From Rhodothermaceae bacterium (GTDB lineage: Bacteria; Bacteroidota; Rhodothermia; Balneolales; Cyclonatronaceae), in NCBI GenBank assembly GCA_020201275.1, contig JAIVHB010000137.1, forward strand, positions 1 through 62,217: 62,217 nucleotides of DNA. Reading direction: 5' to 3'. This document shows positions 1,863 through 50,076 of this stretch, one piece after another. Position numbers and translations under genes: made by a program. The notes under the pieces are model-generated. The model ran no database searches, was not told the DNA's origin, and saw only the letters and a program-made list of their open reading frames with translations. How positions within the stretch are numbered: the stretch's first letter is position 1; each line of letters begins with the position of its first letter.

Positions 1863-1943
1863 CAAAGAATTATTGAGTCGTAGTTGATTTTATCGTATTT
1901 TGTGGGCTTCCGCGAAAATAATGTTAACGCATAGATTTTTGAC

Positions 1944-2141
1944 ATGCCCAAGATGAAAACCAACAGTGGTGCTAAAAAACGTTTCCGCTTTACCGCCAGT
2001 GGTAAAGTGAAGCGCAAGAAAGCTTTCCACAGTCATATTCTAACCAAAAAAAGCCCGAAGCGGAAACGCAATCTGAGAACGGCCACCCTCGTGCACCCCA
2101 CGAACATGACCGCTATCAAAGAGCTGTTACCAAACGGATAA
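1944..2141 (+). CDS. rpmI: 50S ribosomal protein L35
   Basis: A small basic protein of 65 residues with the typical start [14 protein letters not shown] and the motif [14 protein letters not shown]. It belongs to the large ribosomal subunit. It lies 81 nt after infC and 26 nt before rplT. The intervals before rpmI and rplT are where L20-responsive control structures occur in other bacteria, but I could not model one here. Length and sequence are normal for the family. Confidence 0.97.
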
Positions 2142-2167
2142 TTTTAACTCACTAAAAGACCAGAAAA

Positions 2168-2515
2168 ATGCCACGTTCCTCAAATAATGTGGCTTCCCGT
2201 CGCCGTCGCAAAAAGATATTAAATGAAGCGAAAGGTTACTGGGGTTCCAGAAGCAAGGTCTACAGCGTTGCAAAAAACGCTGTCGAGAAAGCTCTTCAAT
2301 ACCAGTACCGCGACAGGAAAGCCAGAAAACGCGAATTCAGAAAACTCTGGATAATCCGGATCAATGCCGGTGCAAGACTCAACGAAGTATCCTACTCCCA
2401 GCTTATGGGGGCCATGAAAACCAAAAACATGGAGATTAACCGGAAAGTGCTTGCCGACCTGGCGCTTCATGAACCGGAAACATTCGCGGCCATCGTAAAA
2501 CAGGCCGTTAACTAG
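2168..2515 (+). CDS. rplT: 50S ribosomal protein L20
   Basis: This 115-residue protein binds 23S rRNA early in large-subunit assembly. The sequence has the arginine-rich N-terminus ([20 protein letters not shown]), the [15 protein letters not shown] segment and the C-terminal globular part with INAGAR and [10 protein letters not shown]. In several phyla L20 also represses its own operon. The gene is followed at once by a strong intrinsic terminator, which separates the infC-rpmI-rplT unit from pheST. Confidence 0.97.
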
Positions 2516-2533
2516 TTTCCCATTTGCTCGTTA

Positions 2534-2571
2534 AGCCGGCAGTAATCAAATCTACTGCCGGCTTTTTTTTT
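2534..2571 (+). terminator. Intrinsic terminator after rplT
   Basis: AGCCGGCAGTA (2534-2544) pairs perfectly with TACTGCCGGCT (2553-2563) around an 8-nt loop and is followed by an unbroken T run. It sits between the rplT stop and the pheS start, so it ends the ribosomal protein operon or acts as an attenuator for pheST. Confidence 0.9.
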
Positions 2572-2590
2572 ACAACCGATATAAAGCAAT

Positions 2591-3586
2591 ATGGCTACCG
2601 AACAGATTTTGAAGGAAATCCGGGAATTTCCGATCACCACACCGACCGAACTTGAAGAGTTCAGACTTGCCTTTCTATCAAAAAAAGGAAAAGTAGCAAC
2701 CCTTTTTGCCGGAATGGGCAAACTTCCACCTGAACAACGGGCTGACTTCGGCAAGCAGGCAAACGAAGTTAAACAGATTGCCCAGCAAAAATTTGAGAAC
2801 GCACGCGACACCCTCGAACAGGGCAAGGCCTCATTTACCTCAGCCCGCGACGATATATCACTGCAGGCTCCGCGGCAGCAGCTTGGGTCGTTGCACCCGC
2901 TTACACAGACCCTTGACGAGATAAAAAGCGTATTCTTCCGGCTTGGCTTCTCTATTGCATTTGGCCCGGAGCTGGAAGATGATTTTCACAATTTTTCGGC
3001 ACTCAATTTTCCTCCCGAACACCCGGCCCGCGACATGCAGGACACATTCTATGTTCGTAAGGATGTTGAAAACCCCCGAAAGGACCTTCTGCTCAGAACA
3101 CATACTTCGCCGGTTCAAATCCGCAAAATGCTGGAACAGAAGCCTCCGATACGCTCAATTATGCCTGGTCGTGTTTACCGTAATGAAGCGGTTACCGCCA
3201 AATCATACTTCCTGTTTCATCAGGTTGAAGCCCTGTATGTAGACAGAAATGTGACCTTTGCCGAACTAAAGGATACGCTCATCATCCTTGCCGAAATGAT
3301 TTTCGAAAAGGAACTGAAGTACAGAATGCGTCCCTCCTTTTTCCCTTTTACCGAGCCCAGCCTGGAAATGGACATCTGGAACCCGGTAAAGAACCAATGG
3401 CTCGAAATTCTCGGAGCAGGTATGGTGCATCCCAATGTACTTCGCTCCGTGAATCTGGACCCCGAGGAATACACAGGCTTCGCGCTTGGCATGGGTATTG
3501 AACGCATCGCCAAACTGCGCTACGAAATAGGCGACATCCGTACCTTTTACGAGAATGATGTGCGGTTCCTCGACCAATTTGTTTAA
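2591..3586 (+). CDS. pheS: Phenylalanyl-tRNA synthetase alpha subunit
   Basis: Catalytic subunit of the (alpha-beta)2 enzyme that charges tRNA-Phe. The N-terminal coiled coil (about residues 1-85) is followed by the class II core: motif 2 around GRVYRNEAVTAKSY and motif 3 in GFALGMGIERIAKLRY near the C-terminus. At 331 residues it has the usual length and no damage. It starts 20 nt after the rplT terminator and is followed after 27 nt by pheT. Confidence 0.97.
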   Translation: MATEQILKEIREFPITTPTELEEFRLAFLSKKGKVATLFAGMGKLPPEQRADFGKQANEVKQIAQQKFENARDTLEQGKASFTSARDDISLQAPRQQLGSLHPLTQTLDEIKSVFFRLGFSIAFGPELEDDFHNFSALNFPPEHPARDMQDTFYVRKDVENPRKDLLLRTHTSPVQIRKMLEQKPPIRSIMPGRVYRNEAVTAKSYFLFHQVEALYVDRNVTFAELKDTLIILAEMIFEKELKYRMRPSFFPFTEPSLEMDIWNPVKNQWLEILGAGMVHPNVLRSVNLDPEEYTGFALGMGIERIAKLRYEIGDIRTFYENDVRFLDQFV

Positions 3587-3613
3587 CCCCTTTCGATTGT
3601 ATTATTACCGTTT

Positions 3614-5863
3614 ATGAAAATTTCCTACAACTGGCTAAAACAGTATATCGACATCGATTTAACAGCTGAACAAGTTGCTGAATCACTAACTCTTACAGGA
3701 CTTGAAGTAGAAGAGATCGAACATATTGGCAGCAACTTCAATGGTATTGTTGTCGGTGAAGTGCTTTCTGTCAGGCCACATGAAAATGCAGACCGCCTTA
3801 CCGTTTGTACCATGAATGCGGGCACGGGTACAAATCTTCAGATTATTTGCGGGGCACCCAATGTAAGAGCCGGGCAGAAGGTGCCTGTGGCCATGGTGGG
3901 ATCTGTACTGCCAATCAAACTGGAGGACGGCAGTAATCTGGTCATCAGAAAAGCCAAAATCCGCGGTGTGGCATCAGAAGGTATGATTTGTGCTGAAGAC
4001 GAACTCGGCCTTGGCGACGATCACTCCGGCATCATGGTGCTTAGCCCTGACATTGAACCGGGAACACTTGCTGCCGTAACTGGTCATCCGCTCAAACTGC
4101 CGGATAACCCTTCTGCAGGTCATACCTCTACGATTGCCGACCGGATAGATATCAGCATTGAAAACCCTGACAAATGTTATCGCTATGTCGGGATGATGGT
4201 TGAGAATGTTACGGTCGGCCCGTCGCCTGACTGGCTTCAGAACCGGCTCAGGGCTATAGGCCTTAGGCCGATCAACAATGTGGTCGATGTTACCAATTAT
4301 GTGATGTATGAATTCGGGCAGCCGCTGCACGCGTTCGATTACGAGCGGATTTCTGGTAAAACCATCGTTGTTAAAGACTACAACCGTGAAATCCCGTTTA
4401 CAACGCTCGACGATAGTGAGCGAAACGTTCCCGCAGGCGCAATTTTCATATGCGACGGTGATAAACCTGTTGCTATTGGAGGAATCATGGGCGGGATAAA
4501 CTCCGAAATTGCCGATACCACATCAACGGTGTTCATCGAGAGTGCCAGCTTCAATCCGGTTAGTGTTCGAAAGACCTCAAAATCACTAACCCTGCAAACC
4601 GATTCCTCCTACCGCTTTGAACGAGGGGTTGATCCGAATATTACCAGAATAGCCGCGGCCAGATGTGCCGATCTGATAGCAGAAATATCGGGCGGCACCA
4701 TTATCGACGGTACTACTGATGTGTATCCAAATGAAATCAAACCTTTACAGGTTAATCTCCGGCCTTCTTTTCTGAAACGGATACTTGGTACTGAAATCGA
4801 AACCGATACTGTTACCGCCATTCTGCAAAGGCTCGGCTTCCAGCCGGATAACAAGGGAACCGTAATTGAGTGCCTGGTTCCCACCTTCAGACCGGATGTA
4901 ACCATGGAAATCGACCTTGTTGAGGAAGTCGCCCGGATTTACAACTACAACAATATCCCCACAACGGGTCGAATTGCATTTTCAAAACCATCCCTTCTTC
5001 CAAAAGAAGAAACGTTCCAGGCGCTGCTTCGCGATACGGCAAAAGCCATGGGGTTCCAGGAAATCTATACCAACTCCCTTCTCCCCGATCAGGTAGCCGC
5101 TACATTTACGGATGCTGATCACCTGCTTTCTACGCTGAACCCCATCTCCAAAGACCAGTCGCTGCTCAGGCCCACACTTGGCTATGGATTTCTTAAAACT
5201 GTAGCCTACAATTTCAACCGTCTTGCCGAAGGTGTTCGCCTGTTCGAACTGGGAAACATATTTACAAAGACCGGCAATGGAACGTACCACCAGGGTATCC
5301 GGGAAGAGGCCGTTCTGCTGCTTGGTGTAGCGGGCCAACGGTCGCGTGAGCACTGGACATCACCTGCTGCAGATTATACAGTTCACGACCTGAAATCCGC
5401 TTTTGAGGCCATTGCACGAAAACTCCGCCTGCATTTTGAACAGGATGTAACAGAAAACCGGATCAACTACACCTGCTCCGGCATGGCGCGCCCGGCCTAC
5501 TACGGTGAGCTTAATGTTCCGGCACTGCAGGGCCTGTACTATCAAAATGATGTACTCACGTACAAGCCGGTACCAAAATATCCGCCATTCGATTTCGATT
5601 TTGCAGTTATTGTAAGCAACACAGTGGCGGCGGGCGACCTTGAAAGTGTAACCAGGAAAGAAGCGGGGCCCCTGCTCAGCAGCCTGGATGTTTTTGATAT
5701 TTTTGAGGGTAACCCCTTACAGGACAATGAGAAAAGCGTTGCTTTCAGACTTCGTTTTATTGATGATGATAAAACATTGACTATCAAAGATGTACAAGCT
5801 ATTATTGGAAAAATTCTTGGCAAGCTCGAAAAAATGTATAATGCGAAGCTGAGATCTCAATAA
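3614..5863 (+). CDS. pheT: Phenylalanyl-tRNA synthetase beta subunit, probable internal in-frame deletion
   Basis: Partner of PheS; carries the tRNA-binding and editing domains. Visible are the N-terminal EMAP-type tRNA-binding domain (about residues 40-150), the B3/B4 region, B5, the catalytic-like core and the C-terminal FDX-ACB domain starting near KYPPFDFDF. At 749 residues it is short for the family, usually near 800. The gap is at about residues 150-153 (nt 4060-4072): DIEPGT runs straight into LAAVTGHPLKLP, skipping the roughly 35 residues that normally contain the conserved GLTPNR-x-D motif. The reading frame is kept. The next gene starts 10 nt after the stop. Confidence 0.93.
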   Translation: MKISYNWLKQYIDIDLTAEQVAESLTLTGLEVEEIEHIGSNFNGIVVGEVLSVRPHENADRLTVCTMNAGTGTNLQIICGAPNVRAGQKVPVAMVGSVLPIKLEDGSNLVIRKAKIRGVASEGMICAEDELGLGDDHSGIMVLSPDIEPGTLAAVTGHPLKLPDNPSAGHTSTIADRIDISIENPDKCYRYVGMMVENVTVGPSPDWLQNRLRAIGLRPINNVVDVTNYVMYEFGQPLHAFDYERISGKTIVVKDYNREIPFTTLDDSERNVPAGAIFICDGDKPVAIGGIMGGINSEIADTTSTVFIESASFNPVSVRKTSKSLTLQTDSSYRFERGVDPNITRIAAARCADLIAEISGGTIIDGTTDVYPNEIKPLQVNLRPSFLKRILGTEIETDTVTAILQRLGFQPDNKGTVIECLVPTFRPDVTMEIDLVEEVARIYNYNNIPTTGRIAFSKPSLLPKEETFQALLRDTAKAMGFQEIYTNSLLPDQVAATFTDADHLLSTLNPISKDQSLLRPTLGYGFLKTVAYNFNRLAEGVRLFELGNIFTKTGNGTYHQGIREEAVLLLGVAGQRSREHWTSPAADYTVHDLKSAFEAIARKLRLHFEQDVTENRINYTCSGMARPAYYGELNVPALQGLYYQNDVLTYKPVPKYPPFDFDFAVIVSNTVAAGDLESVTRKEAGPLLSSLDVFDIFEGNPLQDNEKSVAFRLRFIDDDKTLTIKDVQAIIGKILGKLEKMYNAKLRSQ

Positions 5864-10021: not shown

Positions 10022-10549
10022 TCAGCGTACCCCCAGAAATTTGTGCGTCTGCAGGCTGATACCCCAGCGTGGGTTTTTCTTAACGTAATCAACGATAAGT
10101 GGCATCGAGCCGGGAGTATCCCACTCCGGCTGCAGCAGATGGATTGCCCCCTCCGGGCATTTTGAGGCCTCTTCTTCGGCCCATTTCAGATCTTTCTTTG
10201 TAAGCACCACCACTTTCAGCTCATCCACATATGCGTAGATCTCATCAACCGGTTTCTTGAAACGCTTGGGAGAAAGGGTAACCCAATCGAGATGTCCGCT
10301 GACCGGCGAGGATCCGCTGGTTTCGATGTGAACTGCCAGATGTTTCTCTGTGTCCCAGCTATCTTTTACATCGCACCACCAGCATTTAACATCACATCCG
10401 GCGGTGCGTATGAAATAAGACGCTTTTCCGGTATGATATCCTTCGCCCTGAATGGTAAAAAAATGCTCCATCACAGGGTATTCAACAAGCAGGATGTCTT
10501 GCTCAAGAACTGATAAAACAGAACTGTTTTTGTATTCCGGATGATGCAC
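10022..10549 (-). CDS. queE: 7-carboxy-7-deazaguanine synthase, probable internal in-frame deletion
   Basis: QueE is a radical SAM enzyme that converts 6-carboxytetrahydropterin to CDG in preQ0/queuosine synthesis. The cluster motif CDVKCWWC (C52, C56, C59) is intact, as are the C-terminal LQPEWD and LQTHKFLG segments. At residue 70 WDTEKH is joined directly to LAVHIETSG (nt about 10337-10346). The family normally has some 40 residues between them, including the GGEP motif that contacts SAM, so this product is probably inactive as written, although the frame is open. The GTG start at 10549 lies 4 nt after queD; ATG at residue 27 (MEHFFTIQGEG) is a possible alternative. Confidence 0.88.
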   Translation of the reverse strand: MHHPEYKNSSVLSVLEQDILLVEYPVMEHFFTIQGEGYHTGKASYFIRTAGCDVKCWWCDVKDSWDTEKHLAVHIETSGSSPVSGHLDWVTLSPKRFKKPVDEIYAYVDELKVVVLTKKDLKWAEEEASKCPEGAIHLLQPEWDTPGSMPLIVDYVKKNPRWGISLQTHKFLGVR

Positions 10550-10553
10550 AATT

Positions 10554-10943
10554 TTACAGATTTTTATCGGTGTATTCGACCCAGCTGTCGGGCGTTTCCC
10601 ATACTGTAACGGTCAGGTCGATGCCGGCAGGTATACGTTTCCGGGTCTCTTGATGAATGTATTCGGCAATGCGTTCGGCTGAAGTAGCAACCTGCAGAAC
10701 ATCGTTGAGTACGGCATGATCAAAACCGCCCTTTTCAACATCCTTGCCGGCCCATTTCAATTCATGGAAATCACAAACCATGTCGGGGGAAGCCAGGTAT
10801 TTGGATGGATTGAGCTTGTGCGATTTGGCCGATACACGCACCCGGTATGTATGTCCGTGCATGCGGCCGCATTTGCCGTCATAGCCCTCAATAAAGTGGG
10901 CCGAATCGAATTTGAATTCTGTATTTAAAGTCCAGGTAGGCAT
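10554..10943 (-). CDS. queD: 6-carboxy-5,6,7,8-tetrahydropterin synthase
   Basis: QueD (PTPS/QueD family) makes 6-carboxytetrahydropterin from dihydroneopterin triphosphate, one step before QueE. Zinc ligands H16, H29 and H31 (SAHF and HGHT) and the catalytic Cys C25 (GKCGRMHGH) are visible, together with the conserved FDHAVLND and WETPDSWVEY. ATG 10943 gives 129 residues; a TTG four codons upstream is possible but less likely. It is the first gene of the minus-strand queD-queE-SDR unit. Length is normal. Confidence 0.93.
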   Translation of the reverse strand: MPTWTLNTEFKFDSAHFIEGYDGKCGRMHGHTYRVRVSAKSHKLNPSKYLASPDMVCDFHELKWAGKDVEKGGFDHAVLNDVLQVATSAERIAEYIHQETRKRIPAGIDLTVTVWETPDSWVEYTDKNL

Positions 10944-16523: not shown

Positions 16524-17743
16524 CTATCCTGTTTCCAGCTTCAGCATGTCGGATGATTCCGGTAATGTTAATGACAATACTGTTCCATACAGGATGATGA
16601 AAACCAGTACCATTATCAATACCTGCAAGCCGGCTGCATCTGCAATAAATCCCAGGGAGGCTCCGACCAGGGTGAACAGACCTACAATTGTATTGCTCAA
16701 CGCTACATAGGTAGGTCGGTCCCTTTCGGGTGTGGCATCAACCAGATAGGTTTTTCTGCCAAGGCGAACTGCGGCCTGGCCGAATCCTGCAAAAAAGAAG
16801 ACGAAGGCAAACCAGATATCGCGGTGGAAATATTCGGGCAACCAACCCAAAACCAATGCCAGGATACCGGCAAACGCCCCGATGAATCCTCCAAGTATGA
16901 GTACAATATGACTCTTTTTATCGGCAAAACGACCCCAGAACGGACTACTGACAACCATCGCAAGACTGCTTGCAACAACAAAAAATCCCAGTGAGCCGGC
17001 CCCTGTACCCGTGAGTTCACGGGCATAGAGCGCATAGAAGGGTACCGCGAGCTGTAAACCGAGCAAAAGAGAACGAACCATCACAAATTTGCGGAAACCG
17101 GGCTCCGTTTTCAAATAATGTAATCCGGCTGCTGCCTCTTTCAGGGCATTCCGGCTACCCCCCGTTGCGCCATCTGTTTCTTTAAGCCGGCGAACAGGGC
17201 CAGTAATCCGCCCGCGGCAGCACGCACTGATAAAAGGGTACCCCGTTTCCCTTTCGGAATCGTTTTTGCCAGAACATCCTTAAAACTTACCGAGCCAACC
17301 CCACTTGCCATACTGAATACGGCCAGAAGAATCACAACCAGGATGCCAGATGTTAATCCGTTGAAAAGAAGCACCGATGGAACCATCAGCCCGAGAGATG
17401 CGGCCTGTGCAACCCCGGCTGCAACCCAGAACCACTTCCTTTTGCTGAATGCACGTATGTAACCTGATACGGCAAGTTGTGGAATTAGAGCACCTCCCCT
17501 GTGCACGGGTACAAGAAAACCGGATAATGAGGCTGGTGCCCCTGCAGATGCGAGCAGCCATGGGAGTACAAGACCGGGACTGGCAACAACTTCAGCCAAT
17601 TTGGTTAATGATCCGTTTGCCGCATTCAGGAAAAAGTTGCCCGGGGCTTCACGGCAAGCGCTTTCGGGTATCTCCTCACAGGCATTATCGGTTTCCTCAG
17701 TAATGTATTCGTAGACTTTTTCAGTTACTTTACTGCTGTTCAT
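16524..17743 (-). pseudogene. MFS transporter, split by an internal deletion
   Basis: Two open segments, 17741-17141 and 17114-16524, are the two halves of a 12-helix major facilitator. The join is not a simple homopolymer slip. The frame of the second half can be read back to about nt 17183 as LKETDGATGGSRNALKEAAAG, the normal inter-domain loop and next helix of this family. The first half ends at GGLLALFAG. The family has some 35-40 residues (about TM6) between these points, so a block is missing and the frame changes. The first half starts best at ATG 17743, overlapping the CHAD gene's end by 14 nt. The downstream fragment's ATG 17114 is internal. The substrate is unknown. Confidence 0.85.
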
Positions 17744-28571: not shown

Positions 28572-28681
28572 TAATTCCGGGAACAAGATTAAGATTAATT
28601 AATATCATTAGGGATACGAATAGTAATAACGACATATTTTTGCTATCATTAGCGAATAATATGACTCTCTAAATTGAAGGC

Positions 28682-29550
28682 ATGCTAGACAACTACTACT
28701 ATTTCGATAAAAACGCCTGCGAATTTAAAAAAGTAGAGTATAATCCAACCGAAAGAGTTGTGCATACAATAAGTCTCTGGTTTTTAACAGGGCTTGTCAT
28801 ATCCGGGATTATCATTGCTTCACTTTCTACAGTGGTTGGACAGAACGCGACAATGAAATCTATCGCAGTGTGCTTGGCATGGAGCCTATCCCCTACGATG
28901 AAAGGCTTGCCGGGGCTGGCGGGGCCGATATCTATAACCGGTTCGATGGATACAGCAACGAAGCATCTGAACTTCTGAAATGGTCGGCAGCCAACCTGGA
29001 GACCCTTGAGCGCCGCATTGGTATACAAAAGCTTAGTCTCGACGAGATCAAATCTATTTATAACAATAATCAGCAACGGCTCAGCCATCTGCCGGTTATG
29101 CGACCAGTCGACGGAATGATACTTAGCAATTACGGTATGCGAATGCACCCGGTTCTGAAAATGCGGCTCATGCACGAAGGAATGGATTTCAGAGCCAATA
29201 TTGGAACTCCTGTTTTCGCAACGGGTAATGGCACTATTCGTTTCTCCGGGAACCGTGGAACGCTCGGTCTGCTAATTGAAATTGACCACAGCCACGGATA
29301 TATAACACGATACGCACACTTGTCGAAGCTGGAGTCTGGCATCCGGCCGGGCACCAAAGTGAACCGTGGCGACCTTATTGGTTATTCAGGTAATTCAGGC
29401 AGGGTATCCGGGCCCCATCTCCATTACGAAATCCTGAAGAATGGCCGTAGTGTAGATCCTATCCAGTATCTGTTTACAGACATCACCCCTCAGGAATATC
29501 TTCTCTATAAAAGAATGGGTGAGGAAGACTACTACGCAGTCAACGAATAA
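28682..29550 (+). pseudogene. M23 metallopeptidase, split by an internal deletion
   Basis: A membrane-anchored LytM/M23 endopeptidase of the FCB type that would cut peptidoglycan cross-links. The first frame (from ATG 28682) gives a short cytoplasmic tail and one transmembrane helix (about residues 32-50). The second frame gives the periplasmic domain with zinc ligands in HEGMDF and GPHLHYE. Read backwards, the second frame gives TERDNEIYRSVLGMEPIP from about nt 28840, normally preceded by a coiled coil of some 35 residues after the membrane helix. Here the helix runs directly into it in another frame. ATG 28870 of the second ORF is internal. As written, no full-length protein can be made. 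Confidence 0.82.
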
Positions 29551-33865: not shown

Positions 33866-33901
33866 CAGAAAGTGAACTGTGATGAAGAACGCTATGAAAG
33901 C

Positions 33902-34305
33902 TCAGCGGGAACCGGCTTCGGTAACCGTCAATCTGGATGCCGCTTCTTTAGCAGCGTCGAAATCGGGTAAATCACTCGGATTTTCAAGCACTTCTGCATT
34001 GCTGCTGAAACATCCTTGTTAAAGTCGCTTAACAGAGTAAAATTGAGCTCTTTGGAATTTTTGAATTCTTTGAGCGTAAAAAAACTGTCGACACTAATGC
34101 CTAATACCTCAACATTCATTTCCAGATAAGGTGAAAGATCATCGCGTACGTAACACAACTCTTTGGTACACGTGCCAGTGAAAGCAAGGGGGAAAAAGAG
34201 CAGAAGAACGTTCTTACTGCCCTTAAAATCGGATAATCTTACATCGTTGCCTTCAGTATCTTTGATCTGAAAGTCGGGAGCATTGTTACCGGTTGCCAAA
34301 TTCAT
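33902..34305 (-). pseudogene. AhpE/Bcp-type peroxiredoxin, split by an internal deletion
   Basis: A thioredoxin-fold peroxidase. The N-terminal two thirds are intact, including the peroxidatic Cys in FTGTCTKELC and SVDSFFTLKEF. After NFTLLSDFNKDVSAA the frame breaks: the continuing ORF ends in unrelated residues at 33928, whereas the next frame reads AEVLENPSDLPDFDAAKEAA to a stop at 33902, exactly the expected C-terminus. About 30 residues normally between them (the YG...FGMKG...RAAFVVD block) are absent, and the frame changes at about nt 33994-34003. As written the enzyme is truncated. Confidence 0.85.
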
Positions 34306-37996: not shown

Positions 37997-38075
37997 GTCA
38001 TCTCAGGCTGGCTTAATGATTTTAAAGATAATTAAGCCTGGTTTCGGGTGAGATATTTCAGATATCAGTGACATA

Positions 38076-38197
38076 CTTCCAAATCACTTCGCCGTTCAAA
38101 TGTTCTATTGTTCACTTGTTCCCTAATTCGAAGCATGCTAACGGCACCACCGGTGTCACCTATTTAATTGTGTAGCCCCGAAGGGGCGAAATTAGTG
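38076..38197. repeat. Intergenic repeat, copy 1 (GAAC octamer module plus GCCCC hairpin)
   Basis: Two modules lie between the small membrane protein and the UvrD-like gene. The first (about 38076-38121) carries GTTC at 38094, 38102, 38110 and 38118, an exact 8-nt period, next to CAAATCACTTCGCC. The second is a hairpin GCCCC (38175-38179)/GGGGC (38183-38187) followed by GAAATTAGT. Both modules recur at 49.8 kb in opposite orientation and different order. The hairpin module looks like a REP-type palindrome. The second module lies just past, and touches, the 3' end of the helicase gene. Confidence 0.7.
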
Positions 38198-38199
38198 GC

Positions 38200-40245
38200 T
38201 CAGGATGACGGACCGGCACCTAATTGCGGCAAGGCCGGCTTTTCATGTTTTTCGGGCAGTGACGGGGACTCCTTTTCTTCAACCAGCATCCAGGGTTCCA
38301 GAATTTTATCGCTGATGGTATCAATAAACCGGGAAGGTTTTGTGAAGAACTCCCCGTAGACCGACTGCTGCAGAACAGGATAGGTAATGTATAGCTGCTC
38401 TCTGGCCCTGGTAACAGCCACATAGAGAAGCCGGAGCTCCTCGTCCAGGTCCTCATCCAGCTCAAGCGCATAGCCGCTTGGAATAACGCCATCAAGGCAC
38501 TGTATAATGAAAACGTGTTCCCACTCCAGCCCTTTCGCCGAATGGATAGTGCTCAAAATCAACGGCTCCTCGTCTTTTTTACCGGGTTCAGAATCCACAA
38601 CGGTAGCTTCAATCGGATCGAGAACGAGATCGTCGAGAATCTGCTGATACCGGCTGAAATTGATGCAGATGCCTGAGAAGGATTCCAGGTCTTTCAGCCG
38701 TTTGGGATAGTCGTCAAATTTTTTCTCGCATACTGGTTTGTAATATGCAATGATGCGTTCCACCGCCTCACCCGGGGTGGTTTCCTCACCGCGGATCGAC
38801 TGAAGCAGTGCAAACAGTTTCGACAGGTTCTCCCGGTACTTGCCCGAAACGATTCCGGAATCCAGAATCTGATCGGTGTTACGGTTGGCGTTTATCCAGT
38901 CGATCAGTTCGCCGGCCGTTTTTGGGCCGATCCCGTCGACCAGTGTGAGTACCCTGTTCCAGGCTATGGCATCATCCACGTTAACAACCACCCTGAGGTG
39001 CGCAAGAACATCTTTAATATGGGCCGCCTCCGAAAATTTCTGGCCGCCGTACTTCACATACGGGATTTTCCTTTTCCCGAGTTCGATTTCCAGATCAAAT
39101 GAATCGCGGCTGTTTCTGAACAGAACGGCCACGTCGTTCAGTGAAATTTCCTGCTCACGCAGATTCAGGATCATCTGGGCTATAAACCGGGACTGCTCAC
39201 GTTCATCCGAGGCTCTGACCAGTGCAGGCAGCTCCCCTGCTTCCCTGCGTGTAAACAGCTTTTTCTCGTATTTCTTCTTTGCAAGCTCCAGTACATTATT
39301 GGCCAGAGTCAATACGTTGCCTACAGACCTGTAATTCTCTTCCAGTTTAATGATAGCCGTATCGGGATAGATTTCGGGGAACTGCATGATGTTTCTGTGA
39401 TCGGCACCCCTGAAAGCATAGATACTCTGGGCATCGTCGCCCACCGCCATCACATTCCGGTGTACAGAGCTGAACAGCTTAACCAGGTCGGCCTGCAGGG
39501 CGTTTGTGTCCTGGTATTCGTCGACAAGCACGTGCCGGTTTGCTGCTGCCACCTCATTTCTGACCTCCGCATCGGTCTGAAGCAGATTTAGCGTATAGAC
39601 CAGCAGGTCGTCGAAATCCATCACCTTATTCTGAAATTTATAACGGCTGTACACTTCCGCGAGCTGTTCAATCCGGTCTATGTGTACCAGGAACTGTTCG
39701 TAGCGGCTGCTGACCACCTCATGCAGAGACAAACGCCTGTTAACAGCAGTGCTGATGATGCCAAGAAGTGAATTTTTGTTTGGAAAGCGCTCACTAAGTT
39801 TATTGAATTTAAGCTCCGTACGCAGCAGCTGCAGCACATCGAGGGCGTCGGATGTATCGATTATGGTGAAATTTTCAGGGAAACCCAGGCGAGATGCATA
39901 CCGGTGCAGAATGGTATTGCAGTAATAGTGAAATGTCCCCCCCCGGATCCTGTGGCAGCGTGCGTCGAGAATGGCGGATGCTCTGTCAAGCATTTCACGC
40001 GATGCCCTGCGGGTAAATGTGAGAAGAAGTATGGATGAGGGATCGACGCCCGATTCGATCAGACGCGACACACGGTAAACAAGCGTGCGGGTTTTCCCGG
40101 TTCCCGCGCCGGCAATTACAAGCGATGACCCTCTGTCGAACATCACGGCCCGGAGCTGCTGTTCATTCAGCAATTCGGCGTATGGTATGGTAAAATCGGC
40201 GGCTGTGTGCCCTGTATCGTCCCGGCGCAAAACAAACTTTTTCAT
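38200..40245 (-). CDS. UvrD/PcrA-family ATP-dependent DNA helicase
   Basis: The 681-residue superfamily 1A helicase has Walker A AGAGTGKTRT (about residues 45-54), motif Ia (TFTRRASREM), Walker B VDEYQDTN (about 238-245), motif III GDDAQSIYAFRGAD, motif IV EENYRS, motif V STIHSAKGLEWEHVF and motif VI YVAVTRAREQLYI. It unwinds DNA 3' to 5' in repair or replication restart. It is shorter than E. coli UvrD (720) and has a proline-rich tail (PSLPEKHEKPALPQL). UvrD, PcrA and Rep cannot be told apart by inspection. Confidence 0.93.
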   Translation of the reverse strand: MKKFVLRRDDTGHTAADFTIPYAELLNEQQLRAVMFDRGSSLVIAGAGTGKTRTLVYRVSRLIESGVDPSSILLLTFTRRASREMLDRASAILDARCHRIRGGTFHYYCNTILHRYASRLGFPENFTIIDTSDALDVLQLLRTELKFNKLSERFPNKNSLLGIISTAVNRRLSLHEVVSSRYEQFLVHIDRIEQLAEVYSRYKFQNKVMDFDDLLVYTLNLLQTDAEVRNEVAAANRHVLVDEYQDTNALQADLVKLFSSVHRNVMAVGDDAQSIYAFRGADHRNIMQFPEIYPDTAIIKLEENYRSVGNVLTLANNVLELAKKKYEKKLFTRREAGELPALVRASDEREQSRFIAQMILNLREQEISLNDVAVLFRNSRDSFDLEIELGKRKIPYVKYGGQKFSEAAHIKDVLAHLRVVVNVDDAIAWNRVLTLVDGIGPKTAGELIDWINANRNTDQILDSGIVSGKYRENLSKLFALLQSIRGEETTPGEAVERIIAYYKPVCEKKFDDYPKRLKDLESFSGICINFSRYQQILDDLVLDPIEATVVDSEPGKKDEEPLILSTIHSAKGLEWEHVFIIQCLDGVIPSGYALELDEDLDEELRLLYVAVTRAREQLYITYPVLQQSVYGEFFTKPSRFIDTISDKILEPWMLVEEKESPSLPEKHEKPALPQLGAGPSS

Positions 40246-41124: not shown

Positions 41125-42365
41125 ATGGATTTATTACGTGGACTGTTGGGAATGGCTTTCCTCATCGGGCTGGCGTTTGCATTAAGCAATAACAAGCGTG
41201 CGGTTAGCTGGCGGCTTGTTGCTATTGGCATCGGCATACAGGTAACGCTTGCACTTTTCATATTAAAAGGCCGCTTCATGGCCGATTATTTCGCCCCGTT
41301 GGGATGGCCAAAGGATGCTTTCAGTTTTCTGTCATCCCTTTTTGTGCGATTGCTTGATTTCACGATAGAGGGAGCGCGATTTATATTCGGCGATCCATTC
41401 TCTACCACTACGGCATTCTTCAGTTTGTTGTAAGAATCATGGCCCGGGGAATGCAGAAACTGATGGGCATATCAGGGGCTGAATCGCTGTCGGTTATTGC
41501 CAACATCTTTGTGGGTCAGACAGAGGCACCGCTTATCATTAAGCCCTACATCGAGAAAATGACCAAGTCGGAGTTGCTCGCGGTAATGACAGGCGGCATG
41601 GCCACTATAGCCGGAGGTATAATGGCAGCCTACATACAGATGCTGGGCGACTCCTATGCCCAGTCGCATGATCTCGCCCTGGAAGTGGGGCGTCAACTGT
41701 TTGCCGAACATCTGCTGGGTGCAAGCGTAATGGCGGCTCCTGCGGCACTGGTCATCGCAAAAATACTCTACCCTGAAACCGGTAAGCCTGTAACGGCCGG
41801 CGAAGTGAAGGTTGAGGTCGAAAAGACGGATGCCAATGGCATTGATGCCGCGGCAAGCGGTGCTGCCGAGGGCCTGCGACTCGCCCTGAATGTAGGTGCC
41901 ATGTTGCTGGCCTTCATAGCCATTCTCGCCATGTTCAACAGCATGCTCGGCTGGGTTGGCGACATCACGGGTCTTACCGCCGCCGCTCCCGATTTTGACC
42001 TGTCGATACAGACCCTGCTCGGCTATATTTTTTCGCCCCTCGCATTCATCATCGGCATACCCTGGGAGGATGCCCTGCAGGTGGGTTCGCTTATAGGAAC
42101 AAAGGTGGTGCTCACCGAATTCATCGCCTATATTGAACTGTCTCAACTGGTGCTCGACCAGGTACTCACGGAAAAAACCATTTTCATGGCAACATTCGCG
42201 CTTTGCGGATTTGCCAATTTCGCCTCCATTGCCATTCAGATCGGCGGCATAGGCGGGCTGGCACCCTCACGCAAGAGTGAACTTGCCCAGTTCGGGATTA
42301 AGGCAGTGGTTGCCGGTACCCTGGCAAATTTAATGACGGCGACCATAGCTGGCGTTCTCTACTGA
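41125..42365 (+). pseudogene. nupC: CNT/NupC-family nucleoside transporter, split by an internal deletion
   Basis: A Na+- or H+-coupled concentrative nucleoside symporter. The first ORF (41125-41433) has the N-terminal helices and ends FIFGD followed by non-homologous residues. The second frame (ORF ATG 41439) can be read back to about nt 41394 as SILYHYGILQFVVRIMARGMQ, the standard start of the core, followed by SGAESLSVIANIFVGQTEAP and the C-terminal GFANFASIAIQIGG. Some 25-35 residues normally between FIFGD and this point (with the AFQVLPTIIFF-type segment) are missing, and the frame changes. ATG 41439 is internal, not a real start. It lies 3 nt after tdk. Confidence 0.85.
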
Positions 42366-42525: not shown

Positions 42526-44399
42526 ATGGAAGGCAGACTACTCAAAGCAGCAATGCTGCTCACATTTTCATTTTTAACCCTCACATCCTGTGCATCATTA
42601 AAGAGTACTTCCGATGCAGACAAATCTGATGTTGTTGGTGAAGTAAACGGTGAATCGGTTTCCTGGCAGGAATTGATGCAAAATTATCAACGCAATCCGG
42701 CAGAAGCCGATACTGCCGATGCGATCGACATCGAAGACCTTACTGATTTTCTGGACCTCTATCTTGATTACCGCGCAAAGCTTGCGGCAGCCGGGGATGC
42801 CGGTTATTTTGAAGATGAATCCATCACTTCTGAACTGAACCAGTATGAAATGCAGTCGGTTTACCCTTACTGGATGGAAAACAGGATCAAAGATGAACTT
42901 CTGCAGGAATTGTATGAGCGGGCATTCGAACAAATTCATGTGTCCCACATCCTGATCAGGGTCGACGACAACCCGGCTCCCAGCGATACGCTCAACGCCT
43001 GGAATAAGCTGATGGAGGCCCGTGAACGTTTTCTTGCAGGCGAGGAGTTTGATGAGCTTGCCCTCGAATATTCGAGTTCGGACCGCGGCAGGAGCATGGG
43101 CGGCGATATCGGTTTTTTCAGTGCGGGACGAACCGTTAAAGAGTTTGAGGATGTTGCCTATTCTACCCCGGTTGATGATGTTTCCATGCCATTCAGAACC
43201 CAGTTTGGCTATCATATGCTCTATGTGAAAGAACGCAGGGAAAGGGAGCCCGAAAAGCTGTTCTCCCATATCTATTTCGAGGGTGACGCAGATGTGCAGG
43301 TAACTCTTAATCGTGCAGGCGAAGTGGTAAAGAAGCTGAATGAAGGAGCATCCTGGGTTGAGATGGTGAGAGAGTATTCCATAGACCAGTCATCGATACC
43401 TCGCAACGGCCAGATCGGGTGGATTCAACCCGGACAATATGCGGCCAGGTTCGACTCCACGATTATGGCATTGCAAAGTCCGGGCGACATTACCGAAGCG
43501 TTTCAAAGCGAGTACGGTGTACACATCGTAAAACTGGACTCCATAAAAACCTATCAGAACGATGCCCAGTTGCGTTCCGAGCTGGAAGAAATGCTCAGGA
43601 ATCTTCCCAGATACCGGAACACCAGGGGAACGGCCATCCAGCAGGTCAGGGCATCGGGCAATGCTGAATTTAATACCGAAGCCAGGAGTGAAATTTCCGA
43701 TAAGGTTAGCGGAACTCCCGGAATTTCATTCAGTAGCCTGGAATGGGAAGAAGGCTTCCAAAACAAACCCTTTTTTACCATTGATGGTACCACCTACACT
43801 GTTTCCGATTACTTTTCATGGCTCGAAGAACGGTGGGAGCAGGAGCAGACCCCCATCTACTCAGTACCCAGTATCTTGACGGTCTGGTGGTATTCAAGAT
43901 TACAGAAGATTCGGTCTGGAACTATGCTGCCATTGATACAGCCGCCCTTGAACGTCTCTTTGAAGGGAATACGGATCGTTACAGGTTCGAGCGCAGGTAC
44001 GAATTCTACCGGTTTTCTGCCGCCCATGACTCGACGATTAACAAGGGTATTGCCATGTTTGAAAGCGGTGTTCCTGTCGACAGCCTGATCGGGCAAGTCC
44101 AGGGACTCACAATACGCAGGGATATTGTAACCAACCTTGATGAGCATCCGCTTACCCTGCTTTCCGATCTGGAAGAAGGCGGATACACCGAACCATATAC
44201 GTTCCGGGCACGCCGTAATCTGCTGTTGCTTCAAACCATTCATGAGCCGCGGCAGATGACGTTTGAAGAAGCTTACCACAGGCTGGTATCCGATTATCAG
44301 CCGATACGTGAGCAGGAATGGCTGCAGACTCTCAGACAGCGGTATTCCGTAAAAACACATCCAGAAAAACTTCAGGAAATTGTCTCTGAACGCTCATAA
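42526..44399 (+). pseudogene. PpiC-type peptidyl-prolyl isomerase lipoprotein, split by a probable deletion
   Basis: Starts with a lipoprotein signal (LTLTSC lipobox, Cys about residue 22), so the product would be anchored in the periplasm. Two parvulin (PpiC) domains follow: HVSHILIRVDDNP... to FGYHMLYVKERR (about 140-235), then HIYFEGDAD... to YGVHIVKLDSIKTY (about 245-345). Near nt 43845-43870 the frame stops being meaningful and another frame (from about 43866 to 44399) gives YLDGLVVFKITEDSVWNYAA and a plausible C-terminal helical domain. A block of unknown size is probably missing, because the two frames do not simply overlap in family-like sequence. First gene of a five-gene envelope cluster. 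Confidence 0.75.
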
Positions 44400-49769: not shown

Positions 49770-50050
49770 CCCAAGTGAACAGTTGAACATGTGAACAATA
49801 GAACATTTGAACGGCGAAGTGATTTGGGAGGATGTTACTGGTAGCTACTAATTTCGCCCTCAAACGGGCTACACTATTTGGGAGATGACATAGCTGCACC
49901 CTGTAGAAATAATATAAATCGCTACATCGCTACGTCGTTGAATCTTATGAATCGATAAATCAAAAACGTGCATATCAAACCGCGATTATTCCACCTGAAA
50001 GAGGTTGTATAAAAAAGATGTCACTGGTAACACATCTGTCACTGGTAGCG
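49770..50050. repeat. Intergenic repeat, copy 2 (GAAC octamer module, hairpin, TGTCACTGGTA repeats)
   Basis: The 392-nt gap after the VWA-like gene holds three repeated elements: five GAAC units with an exact 8-nt period (49777, 49785, 49793, 49801, 49809) leading into GGCGAAGTGATTTGG, a hairpin GCCC (49856-49859)/GGGC (49866-49869) preceded by TACTAATTTC, and TGT(C/T)ACTGGTA at 49833, 50019 and 50037 (the last two in an 18-nt tandem). The first two modules match copy 1 at 38.1 kb in inverted orientation. The stretch from about 49880 to 50010 shows nothing recognised. The terminator at 50077-50117 occupies the end of the gap. Confidence 0.75.
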
Positions 50051-50076
50051 CAAGCCTGCTCATCTTGCTTCAGTTC

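Follow-up and report, generated by a model that had tools for sequence, protein, structure and literature searches.

A 102-bp block missing from a bacterial pheT gene: a highly probable draft-assembly artefact

The beta subunit of bacterial phenylalanine--tRNA ligase (PheT; family TIGR00472) contains a conserved (G)LTPNR-x-D block between its tRNA_bind and B3/4 domains, which, from PheRS structures, we take to be the second half of the B1 domain. In the PheT studied here this block is absent as assembled, and solved bacterial PheT chains have about 33 extra residues at the corresponding site (in 2rhs_B, query residue 154 corresponds to residue 154 and query residue 160 to residue 193). Apparent damage to genes has also been described as a product of assembly: Cooley and Wright 2024 (PMC11017572) report spurious pseudogenes in public bacterial assemblies and ascribe them to assembler, platform and coverage.

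The gene lies in a 62,217-nucleotide stretch of a Rhodothermaceae draft assembly, hereafter the window. All losses were measured against G001, the single genome of the same genus that was compared. The gene and its two internal joins are:

3614..5863, + strand: pheT, phenylalanine--tRNA ligase beta subunit; 749 codons, reading frame open throughout, two internal losses
4066..4069, + strand: join 1 in pheT; 102 bp (34 codons, including GLTPNR) absent relative to G001
5482..5486 (~5485), + strand: join 2 in pheT; 54 bp (18 codons) absent relative to G001

The product is recognizable as PheT. It scored 673.3 bits against TIGR00472, above the curated cut-off of 402.65, and its Pfam domains occur in the expected order (tRNA_bind, B3_4, B5, tRNA_synthFbeta (core-like), FDX-ACB), with the core-like match covering profile positions 2-163 of 214 only. 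An open reading frame at 2591-3586, named pheS from reading its sequence, lies 27 bases upstream of pheT, in keeping with a pheS-pheT neighbourhood. The protein is 85-91% identical to that of G001 over two aligned pieces, and the differences between the two genes fall predominantly at the third codon position (62, 41 and 329 at positions 1, 2 and 3, respectively).

At join 1, DIEPGT runs straight into LAAVTG: residue T151 (4064-4066) is followed immediately by L152 (4067-4069) in an intact frame, as a sequence-only reading of the window had described. That reading also held that about 35 residues with GLTPNR normally separate the two flanks, which the comparisons bear out, with 34 codons at the site in G001 and the block present in 80 of 80 relatives. 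The stretch found in G001 and absent from the window is PFSQIHSSYEDYVFEIGLTPNRPDASCHIGVARD (102 bp, 34 codons), and the 40 bases on either side of the join are identical to G001 at 30 and 32 positions. Neither a degenerate pattern nor a protein search located a second or moved copy of the block in the window's assembly, the protein search returning only the truncated pheT of the window; relocation or duplication elsewhere in the genome was rejected on these grounds. We read the absence of the block as an assembly fault rather than as grounds for placing the protein in another family. The 54-bp loss at ~5485 is additional to what the sequence-only reading had noticed.

The block is general among relatives. 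It was seen in 28 of 29 relatives' PheT loci, G001's included, the remaining locus (L029) being cut by a contig end. A scan of relatives' contigs found a TPNR-type motif at the site in all 80 loci, a set that includes G001's own record (L036); 67 of 67 came from the first script and 13 of 13 from loci that its filter had missed and that were treated separately. Of 198 genomes from the phylum, 197 matched a 141-amino-acid fragment spanning the site, and among the matches listed, all but the window's own run across it; G098 alone gave no match to this fragment. The comparison with related PheT proteins proposed in the sequence-only reading thus turned up the shortened form in no relative with a readable site. 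Relatives other than G001 bear out the pheT loss only.

Two of these relatives' loci are unusual in themselves. In L029 (positions 1-43, genome G041) the contig starts inside pheT, and its initial stretch ends in TGTATAAGAGACAG, which we take to be the end of the Nextera adapter; the contig end is probably adapter contamination. In L017 (319-3300), from G050 of the same order, the PheT reading frame is 994 codons long and includes an in-frame DUF559 domain of ~100 residues (PF04480, 1.4e-25) within a ~170-residue insert between the GLTPNR block and B3/4. The open frame there in G033, a genome of the same genus as G050, is only 811 codons.

Losses of this kind are not confined to pheT. About 85 kb of the window's assembly (the window and contigs C4, C6 and C8) was compared with G001, the window being aligned with G001 contigs C2, C133, C18 and C152. 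With a criterion fixed once the first losses were known (50-170 bp lost, at least 28 of 40 bases identical on each side), the window's assembly showed 14 sharp losses of 54-156 bp and G001 none in the same alignments, all measured against this one congener at a DNA identity of ~77-88% per stretch. Nine losses (54-129 bp) lie in the window, four (146, 156, 66 and 72 bp) on C4, one (68 bp, in sucC) on C6 and none on C8 (L123), where one 102-bp candidate was dropped because one flank matched at only 24 of 40 bases. Besides those in pheT, the losses in the window are:

10338..10339, - strand: join in a queE-like gene (10025-10612); 129 bp including GGEP absent, in frame; Pfam Radical_SAM match lost
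17185..17186, - strand: join in a transporter-like 441-codon open reading frame; 109 bp absent, splitting it into two frames
28577..28578, no strand: intergenic join; 55 bp absent
28839..28840, + strand: join near the 5' part of a peptidase-like gene; 106 bp absent, out of frame
33999..34000, - strand: join in a peroxiredoxin-like gene; 88 bp absent, out of frame
41394..41395, + strand: join in a nupC-like nucleoside transporter gene; 91 bp absent, out of frame
43859..43860, + strand: join in a gene for a PPIC-type (SurA-like) peptidyl-prolyl isomerase; 91 bp absent, out of frame

The names queE, mrpD, nupC and sucC come from reading the sequences and, for the first three, also from Pfam matches. 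Several losses remove conserved sequence: the Radical_SAM match gone from the window's queE is kept in G001's, mrpD loses the conserved PPLSGFWAK, and sucC loses the conserved core LAGGQPANFLDVGGGANVE. The losses are unevenly spread, since neither the final 10.6 kb of the window (aligned with G001 C18 and C152) nor ~3.1 kb aligned from C1 (L116), with its two long genes, showed any. Near the peroxiredoxin-like gene, window positions 33870-34001 span 130 bp between matched stretches as opposed to 834 bp in G001, a shortening of ~700 bp; the 88 bp lost at 33999 may thus belong to a more extensive loss.

Contigs C2, C3 and C7 (L117, L118 and L122) lay outside the G001 comparison, and C5 (L120) was dropped before the count as a tandem-repeat region; its repeat, at ~1923-3837, consists of ~225-bp units, and the region is repetitive in G001 too. 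The window itself contains dispersed short repeats at ~38064-38212 and 49773-50063, partly inverted copies of each other, with dozens of matches across G001 contigs and similar families on C6 and C8.

Thirteen of the 14 losses are in coding sequence. Six are in frame (102, 54, 129, 156, 66 and 72 bp) and seven break the frame (109, 106, 88, 91, 91, 146 and 68 bp). By our own arithmetic, at least six of 13 would be in frame by chance with a probability of ~0.24 if each had a one-in-three chance. The losses are indifferent to reading frame, as would be expected of an artefact, and the in-frame outcome of the pheT loss is a one-in-three event. Past its break, nupC differs from G001 over 321 codons 11, 6 and 127 times at positions 1, 2 and 3, and third-position changes likewise predominate in the fragments of the transporter gene and of the isomerase gene, each side being conserved in its own frame. 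Judged by these substitution patterns, both flanks of the losses are under purifying selection. In decayed genes such conservation would be expected only if the damage had happened very recently.

The joins are nearly blunt. In all 13 joins analyzed by script (the sucC join on C6 was excluded), the split point was ambiguous by just 0-4 bases, so no long overlap produced them. Around join 1, no direct repeat of at least 12 bp occurs within 3900-4250, and repeat-mediated deletion was rejected on this ground and for the near-bluntness of the joins. A sequencing adapter at a join in the window was likewise discarded, as the Nextera end TGTATAAGAGACAG was not matched with up to one mismatch anywhere in the 62,217 bases. 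Coverage loss driven by base composition was set aside as well: the G+C content of 13 lost stretches ranged from 0.33 to 0.65, with no consistent direction relative to the flanks. No Ns were found in the nine stretches of the assembly that were checked (the window and C1-C8).

We conclude, with a probability of roughly 0.94, that the pheT join is a draft-assembly artefact in which ~102 bp went unassembled and the flanking sequences were joined directly; the usual block is almost certainly present in the organism's true pheT. The sequence-only reading had preferred an assembly error because the gene is essential, and the comparison with G001 supports this preference on independent grounds: losses recur in unrelated genes on the window, C4 and C6, are absent from G001 by the criterion given above, disregard reading frame and have conserved flanks. 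That the join is blunt and a stretch is missing suggests that two contigs were set adjacent by read pairs and the bases between them dropped. Short stretches of ~50-160 bp between contigs would have been left unsequenced as coverage gaps, and read pairs would have placed the flanking contigs side by side, giving scaffold gaps of unknown bases (N-runs). Such gaps may at some later stage have been closed up or stripped of Ns, dropping the lost bases.

A point against an artefact is that both pheT losses and that of queE are in frame, which alone could suggest selection. If the deletion were real, the PheT of this lineage would still charge tRNA while lacking the latter half of the B1 domain, and the open frame, the predominance of third-position changes and the loss of whole codons at both joins are all consistent with that. 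Yet no relative with a readable site has the deletion, and the assembly contains a further 12 losses in this size class, seven of them gene-breaking, so that we consider it very improbable. That a free-living bacterium should possess a working PheT truly devoid of both the conserved latter half of the B1 region and the 18-residue piece near residue 624 is scarcely credible. Another alternative is a recent, genome-wide decay by deletion, a mass pseudogenization in which pheT was one victim. It would account for the number of losses, and undegraded flanks would fit a very recent process, but it would require sucC, nupC, queE, mrpD and pheT all to have been broken at once in a genome rated 95.74% complete, by deletions of a narrow size range with nearly blunt ends; we regard it as extremely improbable.

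Strain mixtures cause local misassembly, and the window's genome is a 253-contig draft, in which a minority strain or a graph error could have given a short path. Graph assemblers join on overlaps, however, whereas here the joins are blunt, give or take a few bases, and the assembly has no alternative long copy of pheT; a mixture of strains is therefore an unlikely source of the losses.

The shortened protein does not represent a novel type of PheT, and nothing known of PheT is changed by it. The value of the finding is as a quality warning on the window's draft assembly. By rough extrapolation from 14 losses in ~85 kb to a genome of 3.42 Mb, there may be several hundred silent losses in the draft, of which roughly one-third to one-half would be in frame and thus invisible to frameshift checks, despite the 95.74% completeness rating. 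Short proteins or missing motifs from this assembly cannot safely be given a biological reading without the reads.

Compared with bacterial PheT as described by TIGR00472, the window's protein is alike in domain order and in a score well over the cut-off, and differs at two sites, after residue 151 (34 codons absent) and near residue 624 (18 codons absent); we ascribe both losses to assembly. Like the spurious pseudogenes described by Cooley and Wright 2024 (PMC11017572), the losses in the window would be apparent gene damage arising from assembly. The damage described there includes frameshifts and internal stops, whereas that in the window consists of blunt losses of 54-156 bp, both in and out of frame.
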